64,000 bases of DNA, from positions 2,296,501 through 2,360,500 of the forward strand of contig NZ_CP110848.1 in the NCBI RefSeq assembly GCF_026240635.1, written 5' to 3'. This document shows, piece by piece, positions 6,050-18,019 of the stretch (its first letter is position 1; every line of letters starts with the position of its first letter). The notes beneath the pieces were generated by a model. That model was not told where the DNA came from and searched no databases. It was given only the letters and a program-made list of their open reading frames with translations. This DNA comes from Trichothermofontia sichuanensis B231 (GTDB lineage Bacteria; Cyanobacteriota; Cyanobacteriia; B231). The translations under genes were made by a program, and so were the position numbers.

Positions 6050-6443
6050 AAGGCTCTTACCTGAACTGAATCCGCTTGTGTCAACTAAATAACTTAACTT
6101 AAACAAATTAAACAAATGGTGTGTTCCCAAATCTAGTGTGTCCCCAAACTGGCGATGGCTAAGTGACTATTCCCATCGGCCTAGGTGATTTTTCTGGCCC
6201 TGATCTGTGATCTCCGTGCGCCCCCTTCTGTGATCAACCGACCCCAAAACCATCTGCCCTGGCTTCGCCCCCCTCTATTGACCCCCTCATGGCACAACAC
6301 CACGATCGCCGTCAAAATTGCCCTAGAAAGTTAATGCTCAAGGCTAGACAAATCTGAGCGAGATCGATTATGATGGGGTGCTGTTGCCAAAACGCAAACT
6401 TTGGTATCTGCGATCACCCATCTCAGGGACCAAGGCTCAAAAA

Positions 6444-6474
6444 TTGCTTAAACGGTAACACTACACGTTATAAT
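6444..6474 (+). promoter_or_regulatory. predicted sigma70-type promoter of the S10 operon
   Basis: A perfect -10 box TATAAT lies at 6469-6474. A TTGCTT at 6444-6449 could serve as -35, with a longish 19-bp spacer. Transcription would start near 6481, giving a leader of about 480 nt before rplC. It is the best-looking promoter in the 900 bp upstream of the ribosomal cluster. Confidence 0.6.
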
Positions 6475-6506
6475 TAAAAGTCTGTCTAGATTAAAAGTCT
6501 GTCTAG
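6473..6506 (+). repeat. 17-bp perfect tandem duplication at the predicted transcription start
   Basis: ATTAAAAGTCTGTCTAG occurs twice without a gap (6473-6489 and 6490-6506). The first copy overlaps the last bases of the -10 box and the predicted start site, so the duplication would repeat the initial transcribed region. Confidence 0.85.
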
Positions 6507-6963
6507 ACGGCGTCTGTACTACAAGACTATCTGTCTTGCCTGTCCTGTTGTTTGGTTACACACCTCATGCTGGGAAACCCCCGTGTGAGTGAGGGTATGT
6601 AACCAAGCCGTCAGGTTTTCAGGGAGGCGAAATGGCGCTAGCCTTAACCGTTGCCCATTCTCCTCACTGCCTGAATCTCTCGTTCGGGAGATACTGCTGG
6701 TTTACCAGTCAAGTCTCCTGAAGCGTGCAGCCTAGCCAACAAGGTTTATGCAGGGAGCGATAGTACCGCGATGCGGTAGCCTTTACTCCTGGCTGTGCGT
6801 AGTTTCAGCCAACAATGTTCCAGACTTCGGAACCCAAAAGACAAGCATCCTTTAGGTCTCGGTTGATTAGGAGATTGGGGCTTAATGCGCTTTGTCTTGT
6901 TTGCTGGAGCCAGACACTGGCTTCAGTCATGATGTGTCCACAAACGTTGGGAGTTCAGTTGCT
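6481..6963 (+). ncRNA. long hairpin-rich 5' leader of the S10 ribosomal operon (candidate structured RNA)
   Basis: This 480-nt stretch has no supported gene and many strong helices. The arm TTGGTTACA/TGTAACCAA (6552-6560 with 6598-6606) encloses CCTCA/TGAGG. Others are ATCTCTC/GGGAGAT (6675-6692, 4-nt loop), GCTGG/CCAGT (6696-6709), and GGGAG/CTCCT around a perfect TACCGC/GCGGTA (6753-6790). Further helices are GGCTG/CAGCC (6791-6810), GTTCC/GGAAC (6817-6833), AAGACAA/TTGTCTT (6838-6898) and an 8-bp hairpin GGAGCCAG/CTGGCTTC (6906-6924). Autoregulatory leaders are known for ribosomal operons in other bacteria, such as the E. coli S10 leader bound by L4. I do not recognise this one as a known class. 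Confidence 0.55.
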
Positions 6964-7605
6964 GTGTCTACAGGTCTACTTGGGACCAAGCTGGGAATGA
7001 CCCAGATCTTTGATGAGGAAGGGCTTGCAATTCCCGTCACCGTGGTCCAAGCCGGTCCCTGTCCCGTGACTCAGATTAAGTCACCGGAAACTGATGGCTA
7101 TGCGGCCATTCAAATTGGCTATGGCGAAGTGAAGGAGAAGGCACTAACCCAGCCAGAGTTGGGCCATCTGGCCAAATCTGGGGCCAGCCCTCTGCGTCAC
7201 CTGCAAGAATTCCGGGTGTCCGATATCAGCGGTTATGAGTTGGGGCAAGCCCTCACCGTTGAAACCTTTCAACCGGGTCAACTCGTTGATGTGACGGGTC
7301 ACCGTATTGGTCGAGGGTTTGCGGGCTATCAAAAGCGCCACAACTTCCGTCGCGGTCCGATGGCTCACGGGTCCAAAAATCATCGCCTGCCGGGGTCGAC
7401 CGGTGCAGGTACGACGCCAGGTCGGGTCTATCCCGGTAAGCGCATGGCGGGTCGCATGGGGGCTACCCAGGTGACGATTCGGAAGCTCACCGTGGTCAAA
7501 ATCGACGCGGAGCGCAACTTGCTGCTGCTTAAAGGCTCCGTGCCAGGGAAACCGGGTAGTCTACTACGGATCTCGCCAGCCAAGGTGGTGGGTAAAGCGA
7601 AGTAA
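6964..7605 (+). CDS. rplC: 50S ribosomal protein L3
   Basis: L3 binds 23S rRNA early in 50S assembly and reaches the peptidyl-transferase centre. Clear family segments are [19 protein letters not shown] at the start, then [23 protein letters not shown] and [16 protein letters not shown] chose the GTG at 6964 ([13 protein letters not shown]), with GGGAG about 10 nt upstream, because cyanobacterial L3 begins this way. In-frame TTG 6892 and GTG 6934 are possible but would overlap the last leader hairpin. It is the first gene of the ribosomal supercluster, 74 bp before rplD. Confidence 0.96.
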
Positions 7606-7679
7606 CCCGTTCTAAAAGTTTGCTTCTGGAAATCCAATTCTGGAAATCAAGGGCGGAATGTTATTGAGAGTGAAGCAAG

Positions 7680-8321
7680 ATGGTTGAGTGTGCTGTCAAA
7701 GATTGGCAGGGAGAAGTCGTCGGTCAGACGGCGATCGATCTCAAAGTGGCCCGTGAAGAAACGGCGGCGGGGATTGTTCATCGTGCCCTAGAGCGTCAGT
7801 TAGCCAATAGTCGCCAGGGTACGGCCTCGACCAAAACCCGTGCTGAGGTCAGTGGCGGTGGTCGCAAGCCGTGGCGGCAAAAGGGAACCGGGCGGGCGCG
7901 GGCCGGCTCAAACCGATCGCCCCTATGGCGCGGCGGTGGCGTTATTTTCGGCCCCAAACCCAGGGACTACACCACCAAAATGAACCGTAAGGAGCGGCGA
8001 TTAGCCCTACGGACTGCCTTCCAACGTCGGGCCGCGGAGTTGATTGTGGTGGAGGATTTCGCCACCCAGTTCGCCCGCCCCAAAACGAAGGATTTAGTGG
8101 AAGCGCTCCGCCGTTGGGGAGCGGACCCCACCGCTCGGCTATTGCTGATTCTGCCGGAGCGCAGTGAAGCGCTGGATAACGTTTATCTGTCCGGTCGCAA
8201 TGTCCCTAATCTCAAACTGATCACGGCTACAAATCTGAATATATTTGACCTCTTGGCGGCGGACCAGATTGTTGTGACTGCCGCTGCCCTGACGAAAATC
8301 CAGGAGGTGTACGGTGAGTAA
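7680..8321 (+). CDS. rplD: 50S ribosomal protein L4
   Basis: L4 is an early 23S rRNA-binding protein whose extended loop lines the exit tunnel. The loop is visible as [19 protein letters not shown] with [19 protein letters not shown]. The 213-aa length is normal. The 3' end overlaps rplW by 8 bp, implying translational coupling. In E. coli L4 represses its own operon through the S10 leader; whether the unusual leader here plays a similar role is untested. Confidence 0.97.
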
Positions 8322-8622
8322 GGTAGATACCCGCGACTTGGCGGATCTGATTCGACGTCCAATCGTGACCGAAAAGGCCACCCGCCTGATGGAGGACAAC
8401 CACTACACCTTTGAGGTGGCCCTGAAGGCGACCAAGCCCCAGATTAAGGCTGCGATCGAATATCTGTTTGACGTGAAGGTCGTGGGCATTAGCACCCAGC
8501 GTCCCCCGCAAAAGCGTAAATCCTTTGGCCGTTCCGTTGGCTATCGGCCCCAATACAAGCGGGCAGTGGTCACCCTCGCCCCGGAAAACTCGCTCCGCGA
8601 GGTCTTTTTCCCAGAAGTTTAA
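8314..8622 (+). CDS. rplW: 50S ribosomal protein L23
   Basis: L23 sits at the exit of the peptide tunnel, where trigger factor and SRP dock. The 102-aa protein shows [16 protein letters not shown] near the N-terminus and [20 protein letters not shown], the basic rRNA-binding strand. It starts with GTG at 8314 inside the end of rplD, preceded by AGGAGG within the rplD coding region. rplB follows after 69 bp. Confidence 0.96.
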
Positions 8623-8691
8623 AGTACTGGCTGCGGGGCATTGGGCCTCGCTTGAGCCTATCGTCAACCATGCCGTCACTGTGAGTGAGTT

Positions 8692-9555
8692 ATGGGTATC
8701 CGTATTTATCGCCCCTATACACCGGGGACCCGCCAGCATTCGGTCGCTGACTTTGCCGAGATTACGCGGTCTGAACCCGAAAAATCGCTAATCCGTCACC
8801 GCCATCGCCCCAAGGGGCGTAACAATCGGGGGGTCATCACCTGTCGTCACCGGGGGGGCGGTCATAAGCGTCTGTATCGTATCGTCGATTTTCGGCGGGA
8901 TAAGCACAATGTTCCGGCGAAGGTGGCAGCGATCGAGTATGACCCCAACCGCAATGCGCGCTTGGCTCTGTTGTACTACCGCGATGGCGAAAAGCGCTAT
9001 ATCCTGCACCCGCTGGGCCTGACGGTGGGTACAGAAATTATCTCTGGACCCGAATCCCCCATTGAAGTGGGCAACGCCTTGCCCCTGGGTAACATCCCAA
9101 CCGGAACGATCATCCATAACGTGGAGCTAACCCCTGGCCGGGGCGGACAAATTGTGCGGGCAGCGGGGGGGGCTGCCCAAGTTCAGGCCAAGGAAGGCCA
9201 ATATGTATTGGTTAAACTGCCCTCTGGGGAAGTTCGCCGGATTCGCCGTGAGTGCTATGCCACGATCGGGCAAGTGGGCAATACCGATGCTCGCAACATT
9301 AGTTTAGGCAAAGCCGGACGTAAGCGGTGGTTGGGGCGTCGTCCCGAAGTGCGGGGCAGTGTGATGAACCCGGTTGATCACCCGCATGGTGGAGGTGAAG
9401 GTCGGGCACCGATCGGGCGCAGTGGTCCTGTCACCCCGTGGGGTAAGCCCGCCCTAGGAGCCAAGACCCGCAAACGTAAGAAGGCCAGCAATGCTCTAAT
9501 TGTGCGTCGCCGTCGTCGTTCCTCGAAGCGGGGCCGGGGGGGGCGGCAGACCTAG
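8692..9555 (+). CDS. rplB: 50S ribosomal protein L2
   Basis: L2 is required for subunit joining and peptidyl-transferase activity. The protein is 287 aa. It carries [19 protein letters not shown], the SH3-like core with [20 protein letters not shown], and the highly conserved C-terminal [19 protein letters not shown] containing the key His. The basic tail [15 protein letters not shown] is typical. The 144-bp gap to rpsS is longer than the other gaps here. Confidence 0.97.
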
Positions 9556-9699
9556 TCGTGACCTAGCGGCGAGAGGAGAGAGATAGCAGGTCAGAGAAAA
9601 CAGCAGTTATGACCCCCCATTCACGACTCAGCCGCATCCATGCCAACTGTATTCAAGCCCCAAACGTCAATCCCTCTGTGCAATAGCTGCAATACGTCT

Positions 9700-9978
9700 A
9701 TGTCTCGTTCACTCAAAAAAGGTCCCTTCGTTGCCGATCATCTCCTCAGAAAAATTGAGAAGTTGAACGCCAACAACGAAAAACAGGTGATTAAAACCTG
9801 GTCCCGTGCCTCCACGATTGTGCCCCAGATGATTGGGCATACCATCGCCGTCCACAATGGACGACAGCACGTCCCCATTTTTATTAGTGAGCAAATGGTG
9901 GGACATAAGCTCGGTGAATTTGCCCCCACCCGTACCTTTCGGGGTCACGCCAAGAGTGATAAAAAGGCCCGTCGCTGA
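9700..9978 (+). CDS. rpsS: 30S ribosomal protein S19
   Basis: S19 forms a pair with S13 in the 30S head near the A site. The family start [19 protein letters not shown] sets the ATG at 9700 and gives 92 aa; in-frame sequence upstream to 9640 is not conserved. Further signatures are [20 protein letters not shown] and [16 protein letters not shown]. rplV follows after 17 bp. Confidence 0.97.
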
Positions 9979-9995
9979 TTGCCCAGGAGAAACCT

Positions 9996-10355
9996 ATGGC
10001 CGTTGATACCACCTACGAAGTCAGGGCGATCGCCCGCTCGATCCGCACCTCGCCCCATAAGGTGCGCCGCGTTCTGGATCAGATCCGCGGTCGCACCTAT
10101 CGGGAAGCACTGATTATTCTTGAATTCATGCCCTACCGGGCCTGTGAATACGTCCTCAAGGTGCTGCGATCCGCCGTAGCCAATGCTGAGCACAATCAGG
10201 GACTGGACCCGGCGAGCTTGGTCATCAGCCGTGCCTTTGCTGATCAGGGACCCAGTCTGCGCCGCTATCGGCCCCGTGCCCAGGGGCGGGCCTACCAAAT
10301 TCGTAAGCCCACCTGCCATATCACGATCGCAGTGGCCCCAGCCATCGATGACTAG
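9996..10355 (+). CDS. rplV: 50S ribosomal protein L22
   Basis: L22 contacts all 23S domains, and its long beta-hairpin lines the exit tunnel. Visible features are [36 protein letters not shown] and the hairpin region [20 protein letters not shown]. The 119-aa length is normal. Spacing is 17 bp to both rpsS and rpsC, consistent with one transcript; a good AGGAG precedes the ATG. Confidence 0.97.
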
Positions 10356-10372
10356 CCTTAGAGGAGACACCC

Positions 10373-11098
10373 GTGGGACAGAAGATTCATCCAGTTGGTT
10401 TTCGCCTGGGAATTACCCAGGAACATCGCTCCCGTTGGTATAGCGATACCCGACGGTATCCTAGCCTGCTACAGGAAGACTACAAAATCCGCAAGTACGT
10501 GGAAGCGAAGCTCAGTAATGCCGGCATTTCCGACATTCGCATCGAGCGCAAAGCGGATCAAATTGATCTCGAAGTCCGGACGGCCCGTCCCGGGGTCGTC
10601 GTGGGGCGAGGCGGAGCGGGTATTGAGTCCCTGCGCGTCGGGCTACAAGAAGAACTCCACAGCGGCGATCGTCAGATTCGCATCAACGTGGTTGAAGTGG
10701 CACGGGTGGATGCGGATGCGGGTTTGATTGCCGAGTACATCACCCAGCAATTGGAGCGGCGGGTGTCCTTCCGGCGGGTCGTCCGTCAGGCTATCCAACG
10801 GGCACAGCGAGCCGGGGTGCAGGGCATCAAAGTCCAAGTCAGTGGGCGGCTCAATGGGGCGGAAATTGCGCGATCGGAGTGGACGCGCGAAGGTCGTGTC
10901 CCCCTGCATACCCTGCGGGCGGACATTGACTTTGCCTATCGCACGGCCCAAACCACCTACGGTGTCTTGGGCGTCAAGGTCTGGGTCTTCAAGGGCGAGA
11001 TCATTCCTGGCCAGGAAGAACAGCCATCCCCCGCTTCGGCCAGCCGTCCCCCCCGGCGGCGGCGTCAGCAATTTGAGGATCGGTCTAACGAAGGGTAA
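10373..11098 (+). CDS. rpsC: 30S ribosomal protein S3
   Basis: S3 lies at the mRNA entry of the 30S subunit and has helicase-like activity with S4 and S5. It starts [18 protein letters not shown] with GTG at 10373 and GAGGAG 7 bases upstream. The KH domain has the [10 protein letters not shown]-type GXXG loop. The C-terminal domain includes [13 protein letters not shown] and [14 protein letters not shown] short basic Pro/Arg extension makes it 241 aa. rplP begins 2 bp after the stop. Confidence 0.97.
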
Positions 11099-11100
11099 TT

Positions 11101-11520
11101 ATGCTAAGTCCCAGAAGAACTAAATTCCGCAAACAGCAGCGGGGCCGGATGACGGGTCAGGCCAGCCGTGGCAACGAAATTAACTTTGGTGATTTTGCCC
11201 TGCAAGCCCTCGAACCCGCCTGGATCACCTCCCGTCAGATTGAGGCCAGTCGACGGGCAATCACCCGCTATGTGCGGCGGGGTGGCAAAATCTGGATTCG
11301 GATCTTCCCCGACAAACCCGTGACCCTGCGTCCGGCAGAAACCCGGATGGGGTCTGGGAAAGGGAACCCGGAGTATTGGGTAGCCGTGGTGAAACCGGGC
11401 CGGATTCTATTTGAGATTGCGGGAGTCTCGGAACAGACGGCCCGCGAAGCCATGCGCCTTGCTTCCTACAAGCTGCCCATTAAAACCAAGTTTATTGCGC
11501 GTGAGCCGGAGCAGGAGTAA
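11101..11520 (+). CDS. rplP: 50S ribosomal protein L16
   Basis: L16 organises the tRNA-binding site of the 50S subunit. Family motifs are [17 protein letters not shown] at the start, [25 protein letters not shown] (partly quoted) with the invariant MGSGKG, and a C-terminal IKTKFI. The length is 139 aa. It is 2 bp from rpsC and 3 bp from rpmC, which indicates tight translational coupling. Confidence 0.97.
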
Positions 11521-11523
11521 CGG

Positions 11524-11811
11524 ATGCCATTGTCTAAGATTGATGATTTTCGGCTACTCAGTGATGCCGAACTCAGTGAACAAATCGCCGCCGTTAAGCG
11601 GGAGTTGTTTAATCTGCGGCTGCAACAGGTGACGCGACCGACCGATGCCCGTCCCAAGCCCCACCAGTACAAGCACCTCAAGCACAAGCTGGCCCAACTG
11701 ATGACGCTGGAACGGGAACGGCAAATCAATACCCGCGCCCGTGAGCAGACCACAGCCGCTGCCGCGAGCGCCGATACCACACCGGACGTAGCGGTTTCAG
11801 AGGAGGAATAA
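11524..11811 (+). CDS. rpmC: 50S ribosomal protein L29, C-terminally extended
   Basis: L29 is a small helical protein next to L23 at the tunnel exit. The conserved part covers the first 65 or so residues (LSDAELSEQIAAVKRELFNLRLQQ, quoted in part, with the later RERQ helix). A tail rich in Ala/Thr/Glu after residue 75 makes it 95 aa, longer than the usual 65-75. Extended L29 tails occur in some cyanobacteria. rpsQ follows after 6 bp. Confidence 0.95.
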   Translation: MPLSKIDDFRLLSDAELSEQIAAVKRELFNLRLQQVTRPTDARPKPHQYKHLKHKLAQLMTLERERQINTRAREQTTAAAASADTTPDVAVSEEE

Positions 11812-11817
11812 GGGGTT

Positions 11818-12069
11818 ATGGCAGTTAAAGAACGGGTTGGCTTGGTGGTGAGCGATAAGATGCAAAAAACCGTGGTGGTGGCCGTGGAAAACCGTGCCCC
11901 CCATCCCAAGTACGGCAAAATTGTCGTCCGTACCAGGCGTTATAAGGCCCATGACGAAGAGAATCGCTGTAAGGTCGGCGATCGGGTACGGATTCGAGAA
12001 ACCCGTCCCCTGAGCCGCACCAAGCGTTGGACCGTGACCGAGATTCTAAGCCACACAACCCTGGCTTAA
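11818..12069 (+). CDS. rpsQ: 30S ribosomal protein S17
   Basis: S17 is a primary 16S rRNA-binding OB-fold protein. The 83-aa sequence shows [39 protein letters not shown] and [19 protein letters not shown], all diagnostic. It lies 6 bp after rpmC and 42 bp before rplN. Confidence 0.97.
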
Positions 12070-12111
12070 TCCAGCTTTACCGTCAACCCTTGGCTCAGAA
12101 GGAAACCGACT

Positions 12112-12477
12112 GTGATTCAACAAGAAACCTATCTCAATGTGGCTGACAACAGCGGTGCGCGTAAGCTCATGTGTATCCGTGTCCTCGGCGGTAACCGTCG
12201 GTATGCGGGTGTGGGCGATGTGATTATTGCTGTGGTCAAAGATGCCCTGCCCAATATGGCCGTCAAAAAATCCGACGTGGTGCGTGCTGTCATTGTTCGT
12301 ACCCGCAAGAGCCTGCGACGCGGCAGTGGCATGAGTATTCGCTTTGATGACAATGCGGCTGTCATTATCAATGCCGACGGCAATCCCCGTGGGACACGGG
12401 TATTTGGCCCCGTAGCGCGGGAGCTACGAGACAAAAATTACACCAAAATTGTTTCGCTGGCACCGGAGGTTCTCTAA
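12112..12477 (+). CDS. rplN: 50S ribosomal protein L14
   Basis: L14 is an interface protein that contributes to an inter-subunit bridge and binds the silencing factor RsfS. It starts with GTG at 12112 ([19 protein letters not shown]). Conserved segments include [30 protein letters not shown] and the C-terminal [15 protein letters not shown]. The stop codon directly abuts the rplX ATG. Confidence 0.97.
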
Positions 12478-12831
12478 ATGAAGAAACATCGTGCGACATC
12501 GACCCCCACCCGATATCGGATGCACGTTAAGCGTGGCGATACAGTCCAAGTCATTACCGGCAAGGATAAGGGCAAGGTCGGAGAAGTCCTGCGCACCTTT
12601 CCCAAGACCAGCAAAGTGTTGGTCAAGGGTGTCAATATCAAAACCAAGCACATCAAGCCGCGTCAAGAGGGCGAATCGGGCCGGATTGAAACCGTAGAAA
12701 GCCCGATCCACAGCTCTAACGTCATGCTCTACTCCAACAAGGAAAAGGTGGCCAGTCGCATCTGCTATACCTTCACCCCGGAAGGCCGCAAGGTGCGAAT
12801 GCTCAAGAAAACCGGTGAAATTCTGGATTAA
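12478..12831 (+). CDS. rplX: 50S ribosomal protein L24
   Basis: L24 is an assembly initiator that binds the 5' end of 23S rRNA. The KOW motif is clear ([20 protein letters not shown]), followed by [18 protein letters not shown] and [10 protein letters not shown]. Its ATG follows the rplN stop with no gap, implying coupled translation. The length is 117 aa. A 91-bp gap precedes rplE. Confidence 0.97.
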
Positions 12832-12922
12832 CGCTGGCAACGGCGATCACCATCGTCCGGCCTCCCCCCTTGCTATCCACCCTATGTCCCTGACCACGAC
12901 CAGGGCACCCCATTAAGGACCT

Positions 12923-13465
12923 ATGGCACAGACCCTAAAAACCCGTTACCGCGAGACGATCGTTCCCCAACTAACCGCCCAGTTCGGCTACACCAACATT
13001 CACCAGGTTCCCAAGCTGGTCAAGATTACGGTGAACCGGGGCCTCGGCGAAGCGGCCCAGAATGCCAAAGCCCTGGAATCATCGGTCCAGGAACTGGCCG
13101 TGATTACCGGCCAAAAACCCGTTGTCACCCGTGCCAAGAAGGCGATCGCTGGCTTCAAGATTCGTCAGGGAATGCCGATCGGCCTGATGGTGACCCTGCG
13201 GGGTGAGCGTATGTATGCCTTTTTGGATCGGTTAATTAACCTGGCTTTGCCGCGAATTCGCGACTTTCGTGGCGTCAGCCCTCGCAGTTTCGACGGTCGC
13301 GGCAACTACACCCTGGGCGTTCGCGAGCAGTTGATTTTCCCGGAAGTAGACTACGACAGCATTGACCAGATTCGAGGCATGGACATCACCATTGTCACCA
13401 CCGCCAACACCGACGAGGAAGGCCGCGCCCTCCTCCGGGCGATGGGTATGCCCTTCCGCGACTAG
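12923..13465 (+). CDS. rplE: 50S ribosomal protein L5
   Basis: L5 binds 5S rRNA and contacts P-site tRNA. Signatures are [60 protein letters not shown] and [18 protein letters not shown]. The 180-aa length is standard. As in other cyanobacteria, no rpsN (S14) gene lies between rplE and rpsH. Confidence 0.97.
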
Positions 13466-13516
13466 GACCCTTAAAACAGTCCTCGCTGCTACAGGAATAT
13501 CACACTAGAGACCACT

Positions 13517-13918
13517 ATGGCAGTTAACGACACCATTGCAGATATGTTGACCCGGATTCGGAATGCGAATCTGGCGCGGCATCAAACCACCGAAGTGCCT
13601 TCAACCAAAATGACCCGCAGCATTGCCCGGGTACTCCAGGAGGAAGGCTTTATCGAGGGATTTGAGGAAGTTGGCGAAGGGGTGAAGCGACGGATCGTGA
13701 TTACGCTCCGCTACCGCGACAAAAACCGTCGTCCGACGATCACGGCCTTACAGCGGGTGAGCAAGCCCGGCTTGCGGGTGTACTCCAACCGTAAGGAGTT
13801 GCCACGGGTGCTGGGGGGAATTGGCATTGCCATTATTTCCACCTCCAATGGCATCATGACCGATCGCGAAGCGCGGCGGCGGGGAGTGGGTGGCGAAGTG
13901 CTGTGCTATGTCTGGTAA
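13517..13918 (+). CDS. rpsH: 30S ribosomal protein S8
   Basis: S8 binds the central domain of 16S rRNA and organises the platform; in E. coli it represses the spc operon. The 133-aa sequence begins [17 protein letters not shown] and contains [18 protein letters not shown] and the C-terminal [19 protein letters not shown] with the conserved STSxG rRNA-binding motif. The 117-bp gap to rplF has no gene. Confidence 0.97.
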
Positions 13919-14035
13919 CGGCCTGCCATTGCAGCCAGCTTCCCACAGCACCCTTGCTTTTCCCCGGGTTAGGTAGCCCCAGTTTGTCTAGGACAGGGAG
14001 CGCACATTCAGTTTAAGACAGAGGATACAGGAGCT

Positions 14036-14575
14036 ATGTCTCGGATTGGCAAACGCCCGATCCCGGTTCCCGCGAAGGTAACCGTAACGATCGATGGGCA
14101 ACAAGTCACCATCAAAGGCCCCAAGGGCGAGCTGTCCCGCGTGCTGCCGAACGAGGTTTCGGTGGCGCAGGTGGATGGCCAGGTCCAGGTCAACCGGCGG
14201 GACGACTCCCGTCCGGCACGGCAACGGCATGGCCTCTGCCGCACGCTGGTGGCCAATATGGTTGAAGGGGTTTCCCAGGGCTTCCAACGCCGTCTGGAAA
14301 TCCAGGGGGTGGGCTATCGGGCGCAGGTCCAGGGTAAAAACCTGGTGCTGAACATCGGCTACAGCCATCCCGTGACGATCGAACCCCCCCCCGGCATTGA
14401 ATTTGCCGTTGAGAACAACGTCAACATTATTGTCAGCGGTATAGACAAGGAAATGGTGGGCAATACGGCGGCGCGGGTGCGGGCTGTGCGGAAACCAGAA
14501 CCCTACAAGGGCAAGGGGATTCGCTACCAGGGTGAACAGGTCCGGCGCAAGGCTGGTAAGTCAGGTAAGAAATAA
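14036..14575 (+). CDS. rplF: 50S ribosomal protein L6
   Basis: L6 lies near the factor-binding region and sarcin-ricin loop. It shows [17 protein letters not shown] at the N-terminus, the internal duplicated fold with [15 protein letters not shown], and the signature [14 protein letters not shown] near the C-terminus. The length is 179 aa and rplR follows after 18 bp. Confidence 0.97.
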
Positions 14576-14593
14576 GGGCTAAGGGTTAAGGCT

Positions 14594-14953
14594 ATGAAAA
14601 CTCGTAAAGATCTCGTTCAAGCACGGCATCGCCGCGTGCGTAAACGCCTGTCAGGAACAACCGAGCGGCCCCGCTTGGCGGTCTTCCGGTCCCATCAGCA
14701 TATCTACGCCCAGGTCATTGACGATACCCAGCACCACACCCTAGTTGCGGCCTCAACCCTTGATCCGGAACTGCGGGGGCAACTGGCCTCCGGGGCTAAC
14801 TGTGAAGCATCGAGCGCCGTGGGCAAACTCATCGCCCAACGCGCCCTGGCTAAGGGAATCGAACAGGTGGTTTTCGATCGCGGTGGCAATCTCTATCATG
14901 GCCGGGTTAAGGCCTTGGCAGATGCGGCCCGCGAAGCCGGGTTGCATTTCTAA
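14594..14953 (+). CDS. rplR: 50S ribosomal protein L18
   Basis: L18 brings 5S rRNA to the large subunit with L5. Family segments are [36 protein letters not shown] and the C-terminal [20 protein letters not shown]. The 119-aa length is normal. The gap to rpsE is 96 bp and carries a short AGCACTGG(C/T) repetition without coding potential. Confidence 0.97.
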
Positions 14954-15049
14954 CACGGCACTGTCGTCATCAACACGCACTCAATAGCACTGGTAGGTAG
15001 CACTGGTTAAGTAGCACTGGCAACAGAGGATTAGGACGAAGGAACCGTT

Positions 15050-15571
15050 ATGGCAAAATCTCGTAAAGCAAGCCGCGCCCGCGAAAAGGAGACCGACTGG
15101 CAGGAACGGGTGGTACAAATCCGTCGCGTCACCAAGGTCGTTAAGGGCGGTAAAAAACTCAGCTTCCGGGCGATCGTGGTTGTGGGTAACGAACGTGGCC
15201 AGGTGGGCGTCGGTGTGGGCAAAGCCGCCGACGTGATTGGAGCCGTGCGCAAGGGTGTTGCCGATGGTAAAAAGCACCTGATCGAAGTGCCCATCACCAA
15301 GTCCAGTTCCATTCCCCATCCCGTCAATGGTCAAGGGGGTGGAGCTGCCGTCCTGATTCGGCCTGCGGGTCCAGGGACGGGGGTGATTGCCGGGGGGGCT
15401 GTGCGCGTCGTCCTGGAACTGGCGGGGGTGAAGAATGCCCTGGCCAAACAATTGGGGTCCGATAACCCCCTTAATAACGCTAGAGCCGCCGTATCGGCCC
15501 TGGCCTCCCTGCGCACATTTGCCGAAGTGGCGGAAGAACGGGGGATTCCGATCGAGCAGCTTTACGCCTAG
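15050..15571 (+). CDS. rpsE: 30S ribosomal protein S5
   Basis: S5 is involved in decoding accuracy and the mRNA entry helicase. Visible are [20 protein letters not shown] and the [17 protein letters not shown] loop, followed by [20 protein letters not shown]. The length is 173 aa. rplO follows after 80 bp; rpmD (L30) is absent between them, as is usual in cyanobacteria. Confidence 0.97.
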
Positions 15572-15651
15572 GTCTGGGTTGCCAGCGATCGCCCTCATCC
15601 GATTTATTTACCGTTATTGACTTTATTCACTAATAAGGAATCAGGTCGCCG

Positions 15652-16119
15652 ATGAGACTCCAAGACGCCAAACCCCAAAAAGGGTCAAAACGCCGCCGCC
15701 GTCGGGTTGGTCGGGGGATTGCTGCGGGTCAGGGAGCCAGTTGTGGCTTCGGGATGCGCGGCCAAAAGTCACGATCCGGTCGCGGGACACGCCCCGGCTT
15801 TGAAGGGGGGCAACTCCCCCTGTACCGTCGGGTACCCAAGTTAAAGCATTTCCCCATCGTTAACCGCCGTGAGTACACTACGATTAACGTAAGTGCACTG
15901 GCGTCGTTACCTGCCAACTCGGAAGTTACCCTTGACTCGCTGTTAGAGGCCGGGATTGTCACCACGGCGCGGGGACCCCTAAAAATCCTGGGGGATGGGG
16001 ACCTGAATGTGGCCCTACAGGTGAAAGCCGCTGCCTTTACGGCGGGTGCCCGCAGCAAAATCGAAGCTGCCGGGGGCAGTTGTGAGGTGATTGAAGCGGT
16101 CGCCGCTGGTGCGCAATAG
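15652..16119 (+). CDS. rplO: 50S ribosomal protein L15
   Basis: L15 is a late assembly protein of the 50S core. The basic N-terminal half with [40 protein letters not shown] and [14 protein letters not shown] is diagnostic. The C-terminal domain ends near [13 protein letters not shown]. The length is 155 aa, and secY begins 32 bp downstream. Confidence 0.96.
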
Positions 16120-16151
16120 CCACGCAGTTCTGTCGGTAGAGGTATCCGCTC

Positions 16152-17465
16152 ATGGTTGAAAGTCGCGATCGCGCACCGACAGCCCAGGAAACGTTTATGC
16201 AAATGGCCCAGGCAGCCGGTCTGCGTGGGCGTTTGTTGGTAACCATCGGGCTGTTGATTTTAGTTAGATTGGGGATCTATTTACCCGTTCCGGGCATCGA
16301 TCGGGAAGCCTTCCGGCAAGCCCTAGGTAATAACCCCGTGATTGGCTTTCTGGATATCTTCTCTGGGGGGGGGTTCCTCGCCCTAGGAATTTTTGCCTTG
16401 GGGATTCTGCCTTATATCAATGCCTCCATCATTTTGCAATTATTAACGGCAGCGATTCCCGCCCTAGAAGATTTGCAGAAAAATGAGGGCGAAGCAGGGC
16501 GACGCAAAATTTCCCAAATTACTCGCTATGTAGCGTTGGGCTGGGCTGTCTTCCAGAGCGTTGGGCTAGCGCTACTAGTGAGTAACCTCGGTGCTGCCGC
16601 TAGCCCTGGCCCCATGTTTATTTTGCAAATGGTCCTAGCCTTAACAGCAGGGGCTATGTTCGTCATGTGGATTGGCGAACTGATTACTGAACGGGGAGTG
16701 GGCAATGGTGCGTCCCTGTTGATTTTCGTCAACATTGTTTCCACATTACCCAAGTCCCTATCCGATACCTTTGCCCTCACCCAGAGTGGCGATAGCAATT
16801 TGGTGGGGGGGGTGATCATCCTCTTGTTAGTCTTCCTGGCGGTAATTGTCGGGATTGTCTTTGTCCAGGAAGGGACCCGTCGGATTCCGATCATTTCGGC
16901 CCGACGCCAGGTGGGACGGCGTTTGTACCTGGAGAAAAGCAGCTATCTGCCCCTACGGTTGAACCAGGGTGGGGTGATGCCGATCATCTTTGCTTCTGCG
17001 GTATTGGTGCTACCCGCATCCCTGGCCTCCTTCACCCGGAATGAATTTCTCGTGCAGATGTCAGCCTACCTCAGTCCGAATGGTCCGGCTCCCTGGCTGT
17101 ACGTCCTGTTTTATCTCGTTCTGATTCTGTTCTTCAGCTATTTCTATGCCTCGTTGATTATCAATCCGGAGGACCTGGCTAAGAACCTGAAGAAGATGGG
17201 ATCGAGTATTCCCGGTATCCGTCCTGGGCAAAAGACCAGTGAGTATATCGAGCGTATCCTCAATCGGCTCACCTTCCTGGGGGCGATTTTCCTGGGGGTG
17301 GTGGCGATCGTGCCAACAGCGGTGGAAAGTGCCACGCGGGTGCGCACCTTCCAGGGCTTAGGGGCCACGTCACTGCTGATTTTAGTGGGGGTGGCAATCG
17401 AGACCTCCAAGCAAATTCAGACCTATGTGATTTCCCAACGCTATGAAGGGATGGTGAAACAATAG
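16152..17465 (+). CDS. secY: preprotein translocase subunit SecY
   Basis: SecY is the channel subunit of the SecYEG translocon in the plasma and probably thylakoid membranes. The 437-aa protein has ten predicted membrane helices, starting with [20 protein letters not shown]. Hallmarks are the plug region with [19 protein letters not shown], the cytosolic QEGTRRIPI loop, and the C-terminal PTAVE helix. The stop and the adk start overlap by 1 bp (TAGTG), so the two are translationally coupled. Confidence 0.97.
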
Positions 17466-18019
17466 TGAAGCGTTTAGTGTTTTTAGGCCCCCCCGGTTCA
17501 GGCAAAGGAACCCAGGCCGTCCGACTGGCCGATCGCTGCCAGATTCCTCACATTTCCACGGGTGATCTCCTGCGGGCGGCAGTGGCCCAGCAAACCGAAC
17601 TAGGGATAAAGGCCAAAGCCTATATGGATCGGGGTGAACTGGTCCCGGACGAGTTGGTCTTGGGGATGGTGAAAACCCGCCTAGGCGAACCCGATACGGC
17701 CTCCGGCTGGATTCTGGATGGTTTTCCTCGCAACCGTGCCCAAGCCGAGGCCCTGGATGCGATGCTGGCAACCCTGGGGCAAGTTTGCGACTACGCCCTG
17801 AACCTGGAGGTCCCGGACACTGAACTAATCCAGCGTCTGTTGGCACGGGGGCGACAGGACGATAACGAAGCAGTGATCCGCCGCCGCCTCGAGGTCTACC
17901 GGGAGCAAACCTTGCCCATGCTCGCCTTCTACGAAGACCAGGGCAAGTTGGTGGCGATTAACGGTCACCAGAGTATGGATGCAGTGACAGCAGCCCTAGA
18001 GCAAGCGATCGCCGCCTAG
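17465..18019 (+). CDS. adk: adenylate kinase
   Basis: Adenylate kinase interconverts ATP + AMP and 2 ADP in the cytoplasm. The P-loop is [10 protein letters not shown] (about residues 8-17), with [11 protein letters not shown], the AMP-binding [10 protein letters not shown] and [11 protein letters not shown]. At 184 aa it is the short-LID form typical of cyanobacteria. It starts with GTG overlapping the secY stop. The gap of 226 bp to infA suggests a new transcription or processing unit. Confidence 0.97.

Follow-up and report, generated by a model that had tools for sequence, protein, structure and literature searches.

A predicted S8 operator in the leader of the fused S10-spc operon of Cyanobacteriia

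To our knowledge, the control of S10 and spc operons outside the Gammaproteobacteria is largely unknown. In the S8 site of 16S rRNA helix 21, A595 forms a triple with the A596-U644 pair, G597-C643 is joined by position 641, and U598 is joined by A640; A642 is invariant and makes the only conserved base-specific contact (PMC4176348). The counterpart of the triple in spc mRNA is A+80-(A+81-U+11), and on the protein side IISTS is an RNA-contacting motif of S8 (PMC4176348). None of the 20 new ribosomal protein leaders listed in 2020 is an S8 leader or comes from Cyanobacteria (PMC7247131), and a 2024 review stated that phylogenetic studies of spc autoregulation had not advanced (PMC10931766). That S8 controls its own fused operon in Synechocystis was suspected by Dienst et al. 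(2014), who guessed the target to be in the rpl5-rps8 spacer (PMC3925133). Our search of open-licence papers found no prior report of an S8 site in an rplC leader.

The DNA analysed here, called the window throughout, is a stretch of 64,000 nucleotides of Trichothermofontia sichuanensis B231. It carries a fused S10-spc operon that runs from rplC to at least rplO and comprises 18 ribosomal protein genes, including rpsH. The rpsH product matches solved uS8 chains (E = 2.6e-43) and keeps the IISTS segment. The coordinates of all features are collected in Table 1.

Table 1. Features of the rplC leader and operon in the window (position 1 is the first nucleotide of the window)
Feature	Position	Strand	Basis
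Predicted operon promoter, TAGACA-18-TATGAT	6345..6374	+	promoter scan and recurrence in relatives
Predicted leader (about 583 nt) of the rplC operon	6381..6963	+	5' end inferred from the promoter
Long leader stem-loop, no conserved counterpart found	6552..6606	+	complementary arms; shared-sequence search
Alternative hairpin, mutually exclusive with the S8-site hairpin	6675..6692	+	-8.0 versus -20.8 kcal/mol
S8-site hairpin (predicted S8 operator)	6683..6722	+	fold, covariance models R1 and R2
Helices and loop of the S8-site hairpin	outer helix 6683-6691/6714-6722; inner helix 6696-6700/6705-6709; loop 6701-6704	+	
S8 core, 5' strand GAUACU (counterpart of 16S 639-644 and of spc mRNA +6 to +11 in E. 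coli)	6690..6695	+	
S8 core, 3' strand AAGUC (counterpart of 16S 595-599 and of spc mRNA +80 to +84 in E. coli)	6711..6715	+	
Stem-loop near the start codon, no conserved counterpart found	6904..6926	+	complementary arms
Shine-Dalgarno-like GGGAG before rplC	6949..6953	+	sequence
rplC (uL3), first gene, GTG start	6964..7605	+	ORF; start codon position common to relatives
rpsH (uS8), presumed regulator	13517..13918	+	ORF; same-strand uninterrupted run of ribosomal protein genes

The original prediction described 6481-6963 as a gene-free, hairpin-dense leader. We found no plausible gene between the divergent upstream ORFs and the GTG of rplC, and the RNA 6481-6999 is strongly folded (-199.7 kcal/mol; dinucleotide shuffles average -167.2 +/- 6.0, z = -5.4), with none of 100 shuffles as stable. 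The assumed start at 6481, placed after a -10 box at about 6469-6474, is probably wrong, as this box is without a -35 partner. The sole promoter-like site in 6200-7100 was TAGACA (6345-6350) with TATGAT (6369-6374); the scan alone proves nothing, since a shuffle yields on average 0.7 sites of this kind. The same block, together with the CTGTTGCC that follows it, recurred upstream of rplC in 15 relatives, and of 64 non-redundant leaders 32 contained CTAGACA, a count that for any 7-mer in shuffles did not exceed 10. Transcription is thus predicted to start probably near 6381, about 100 nt upstream of 6481, and the leader is given as about 583 nt because its 5' end is placed there. The conserved promoter also speaks against transcription beginning close to 6964. 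The major start mapped in Synechocystis lies 337 nt upstream of rpl3 (PMC3925133). At the other end of the leader, AGGGAGAC-type sites are frequent within the final 25 nt before rplC in the relatives.

Two further observations concern the 5' part of this region. Directly after the TATAAT that had been taken as the promoter there is a perfect 17-bp tandem repeat (ATTAAAAGTCTGTCTAG, 6473-6506), which may be a recent duplication within the leader. Just 3' of the predicted start, at 6382-6398, UUGCCAAA...UUUGG could form a small 5'-terminal hairpin. At this position CTGTTGCC is kept in relatives, and a 5' stabiliser or an initiation-region signal is possible.

Searches with the window leader against 59 relatives (DNA search) and 80 rplC loci (BLAST) gave no similarity. 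A shared block emerged only when the rplC upstream regions of 78 relatives were compared with one another. It has the form GGAUACUGAGUGG-loop-UGCUCAAGUCC and lies 200-400 nt before the start codon. With the window included, GANACU...AAGUC was found in 78 of 79 rplC leaders, L068 being the exception. A strict pattern that demanded both helices matched 72 of the 79 leaders, none of their antisense strands and two places in 394 kb of coding control DNA. Among 77 distinct leaders the core residues were invariant except at the equivalent of position 641, which was U in 72 and A in 5. In the window the block reads UUCGGGAGAUACU GCUGG UUUA CCAGU CAAGUCUCCUGAA and folds at -20.8 kcal/mol (site and flanks, z = -4.0), the inner helix requiring one bulge. 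The original prediction did not pick out this hairpin. It listed instead a 7-bp arm at 6675-6692, which is possible, albeit weak (-8.0 kcal/mol), and which excludes the stronger hairpin.

The original prediction called for a covariation check among relatives, and covarying pairs were found. The helix was scored as 12 pairs over 61 distinct sequences: the 4 core pairs were invariant and the other 8 had changed on both sides. Pairing was kept in 93.1% of cells, and 103 cells were doubly changed compared with 31.5 +/- 7.3 in shuffles, counts of a kind that kinship inflates. The covariation score was 0.471, for a structure derived from the consensus of the same sequences, against 0.245 +/- 0.014 for shuffles and at most 0.192 for slid versions. 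Double changes were distributed over many pair types (GC, AU, UA and CG).

The remaining hairpins behave otherwise. Three listed by the original prediction can be seen in the window: the helix at 6552-6606 has arms of 13 nt that are 92% complementary, that at 6764-6778 can be read straight from the sequence as TACCGC/GCGGTA, and the arms of the one given as 6906-6924 lie at 6904-6926. A k-mer search found no shared leader sequence beyond the S8-site hairpin, the promoter block and the ribosome-binding site, so most of the listed hairpins are not conserved. Downstream of the S8 site, the search for a second conserved element yielded only HIP1 (GCGATCGC) and the ribosome-binding site. Outside the S8 site, the folds that RNAalifold gave for six clades, taken group by group, were lineage-specific. 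Such lineage-specific hairpins, and the fact that long leaders are general in these genomes, fit a leader that serves mRNA stability and has no regulatory RNA, its hairpin kept by common descent. We regard this as the least credible reading considered here, with a very small chance of being right: the helices change on both sides around a fixed seven-nucleotide core, and the site is identical to a known protein site and occurs in an independent position at rpsH. The idea that the 3' strand of the site might act as an anti-Shine-Dalgarno sequence was also rejected, as the pairing was short and inconsistent between species.

Two covariance models were built. With the window included (R1), the window site scored 24.7 bits. 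With the window left out (R2), 6678-6727 ranked first in the window at 18.7 bits (E = 0.0025; next, E = 0.6), a middling match. Over the whole genome under strict filters the window site was reported by R1 and not by R2. R1 was also run over 242 whole Cyanobacteriia genomes and gave a match in 147, nearly always a single one. Among the 130 listed matches whose genome also had a listed rplC, 123 lay upstream of rplC on the same strand, at a distance of 119-634 nt (median 222). In one genome (G038) the rplC start downstream of the match is at the contig end (L111). The other six, weak matches of 20.6-27.6 bits in six genomes, were away from rplC (G126:C126:12851, G132:C63:19269, G204:C56:132343, G197:C6:36074, G111:C1:2169004 and G195:C10:688403). 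They need no explanation, because about 12 chance matches are expected at E <= 0.05 in 242 genomes.

A further 45 leaders, nearly all from genomes without a covariance model match, were searched for the exact core with both helices. It was present in 30, small picocyanobacterial genomes (L148) included. Over the full 124 leaders the same search gave 1 on antisense strands and 0.2 in shuffles. No recognisable S8 core was found before rplC in some lineages (e.g. L136, L144, L147, L149, L153 and L154). These leaders belong to some picocyanobacteria and to family f33.

The identity of the site rests on its core residues. Equivalences were set by the numbering in PMC4176348 and by the E. coli rplE sequence, in which we read GAAACU at +6 to +11 and AAGUC at +80 to +84. 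A search of the window's own genome with RF00177 gave no 16S match, so helix 21 was read in the 16S genes of six other cyanobacteria, where it has the form CAAGUC...GGAAACUG. The residues of the uS8-RNA contact, namely the A595-(A596-U644) triple, G597-C643 with 641, A642 (A6693 in the window) and A640-U598, all have sequence counterparts at 6690-6695/6711-6715. Helices flank the asymmetric internal loop on both sides, as judged by fold and covariation. The window core matches the known S8 core residue by residue. R2 matched neither the E. coli operator nor 16S helix 21, because of the long insert of the former and the permutation of the latter. A pattern search for the S8 core in 6964-17500 of the window found none, which leaves the leader as its only place there. 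In one genome (G010:C1:2401363-2402520) a 16S rRNA match in several pieces occurs in addition to a complete copy at another place; it may be a second rRNA copy that is broken or interrupted.

The Rfam search that the original prediction asked for gave no window match even at E up to 10 and none at the gathering score (Rfam 15), and 12 relatives and the E. coli rplE region gave no relevant match. The proposal of an undescribed cis-regulatory RNA of cyanobacterial ribosomal operons is therefore upheld as far as a candidate with covarying pairs and no Rfam match is concerned. It has to be narrowed in that the core has a precedent in the E. coli spc S8 operator and the conserved element is one hairpin of about 40 nt.

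R2 was built from rplC leaders only, without the window, and contained no rpsH information. Outside Cyanobacteriia, 48 genomes of the phylum yielded two R2 matches only, and both were immediately upstream of rpsH, the S8 gene. The exact core was found in 16 of the 32 rpsH upstream regions of these genomes, in one non-photosynthetic family (f41), compared with 0.45 of 32 in shuffles and 0 on the antisense strand. In this family the core ends 13-27 nt before the rpsH start codon, beside the Shine-Dalgarno sequence, and the inner helices are varied yet paired. S8-type hairpins at the rpsH ribosome-binding site can be seen in L167 (reverse complement, 557-585), in L168 (528-558) and in L187-L200. 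A genome related to f41 (L180) has AGGUC in place of AAGUC, and several genera are without the hairpin. The site at the rpsH initiation region would likely act by plain translational repression.

S8 is put forward as the ligand because of the identity of the core and because of the rpsH-linked copies in the sister lineage; the latter, though indirect, are the strongest evidence. A leader of the E. coli S10 type bound by L4, or one for another ribosomal protein of the operon, was also weighed. The operon is of the same class, and the L4 leader was the first comparison made in the original prediction, which saw no resemblance. We agree, having found no L4-type similarity and, in place of the attenuator hairpin and U tract of that leader, no terminator, although this assignment rests mainly on the missing terminator and Rfam possibly has no model for that leader. 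No Rfam family matched, and the sole conserved element has the S8 core and goes with rpsH, not rplD, in the sister lineage. Control by L4 or another operon protein is in our judgement highly improbable.

We conclude that S8 very probably autoregulates the fused S10-spc operon from the putative operator at 6683-6722, and we infer from the sequence both that S8 binds the hairpin and that this binding represses. Free S8 in excess of the available 16S rRNA would bind the hairpin through the internal loop that it also uses on helix 21, and bound S8 would lower expression of the whole operon from its head. Binding might then be followed by release of the leader, the RNA being terminated early or cleaved somewhere between the site and rplC. 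This last step is weakly supported and stands about level with other possible steps; the case for S8 autoregulation itself is much stronger. Leader release is favoured over direct masking of the start codon, from which the site is about 250 nt away, also because in Synechocystis an RNA of leader size accumulates separately as the operon mRNA falls. The rplC 5' UTR of Synechocystis is recorded as the sRNA ncl0380, which goes up after UV while the downstream ribosomal genes go strongly down (PMC10989929). These data come from a different species, and RNase E processing without a link to S8 might account for them. The S8 site is close to the transcript 5' end in several species; in L003 and L005 about 53 nt separate the promoter -10 from the core. 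The search for a conserved terminator between site and rplC found none: 9 of 78 leaders have a terminator-like structure, against 2.2 in shuffles, and the window's leader has none. We tentatively propose, while granting that it may well be wrong, that S8, from a site near the 5' end, causes leader release by termination or cleavage without a conserved intrinsic terminator, that the released leader keeps S8 bound, and that one RNA module has changed place between the head of the operon in Cyanobacteriia and the ribosome-binding site of rpsH in the non-photosynthetic sister lineage, with different outputs.

The same Synechocystis observation, an annotated sRNA that is up when the operon is down (PMC10989929), might be read to mean that the released leader, ncl0380-like, is mainly a trans-acting S8 sponge or sRNA with cis control secondary. 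Apart from those in rplC and rpsH leaders, the genomes have almost no copies of the site, which fits cis control and makes the sponge improbable. S8 might also bind the hairpin and block initiation of rplC translation through a long-range, switch-like rearrangement of the leader. In the window the weak hairpin at 6675-6692 would be the competitor of the S8 hairpin. In favour are the strong folding of the leaders 3' of the site (median z -2.4, with 46 of 78 below -2) and the sister-lineage site at the rpsH ribosome-binding site, which amounts to plain translational repression. The competing hairpin is, however, 12.8 kcal/mol weaker, and the variable distance of 119-634 nt with its unconserved intervening sequence is unsuited to a fixed pairing partner; we consider such a rearrangement unlikely.

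If S8 autoregulation holds, S8 and the leader hairpin form a specific, nearly phylum-wide regulator-target pair, which explains how a single protein could govern a fused 18-gene operon and shows one ribosomal protein site in two positions in sister lineages. Operon control outside E. coli and its relatives would become directly testable in standard laboratory cyanobacteria. The reading agrees with the proposal of Dienst et al. in S8 autoregulation and differs from it in the site, the window core being in the rplC leader only; the published guess on the Synechocystis target would thereby be corrected. What appears to be new is the position of the putative S8 operator, which lies where the fused S10-spc operon begins and not at rplE.

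Compared with the E. coli S10 leader, the window has likewise a long structured leader at the head of an S10-type operon, but it is without a NusA-type terminator, and the S10 gene is not in this operon head. With 16S helix 21, the primary S8 site, the leader shares the core nucleotides in reversed strand order; position 641, U in 72 of 77 leaders, is A in the cyanobacterial 16S genes examined. Given the same core and the opposite strand order, the leader site can be described as a circular permutation of the rRNA site, as is the E. coli operator. The closest known system is the spc S8 operator at the start of rplE (structure 1S03). Both it and the window site have GANACU on the 5' side and AAGUC on the 3' side in the same strand order, in both the helix closes beyond the U644 equivalent, and both operons encode S8. 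The window site is not at the translation start of rplE, as an spc-type operator is, but in the untranslated rplC leader about 250 nt before the start codon, and its loop is about 16 nt compared with 68 in E. coli.
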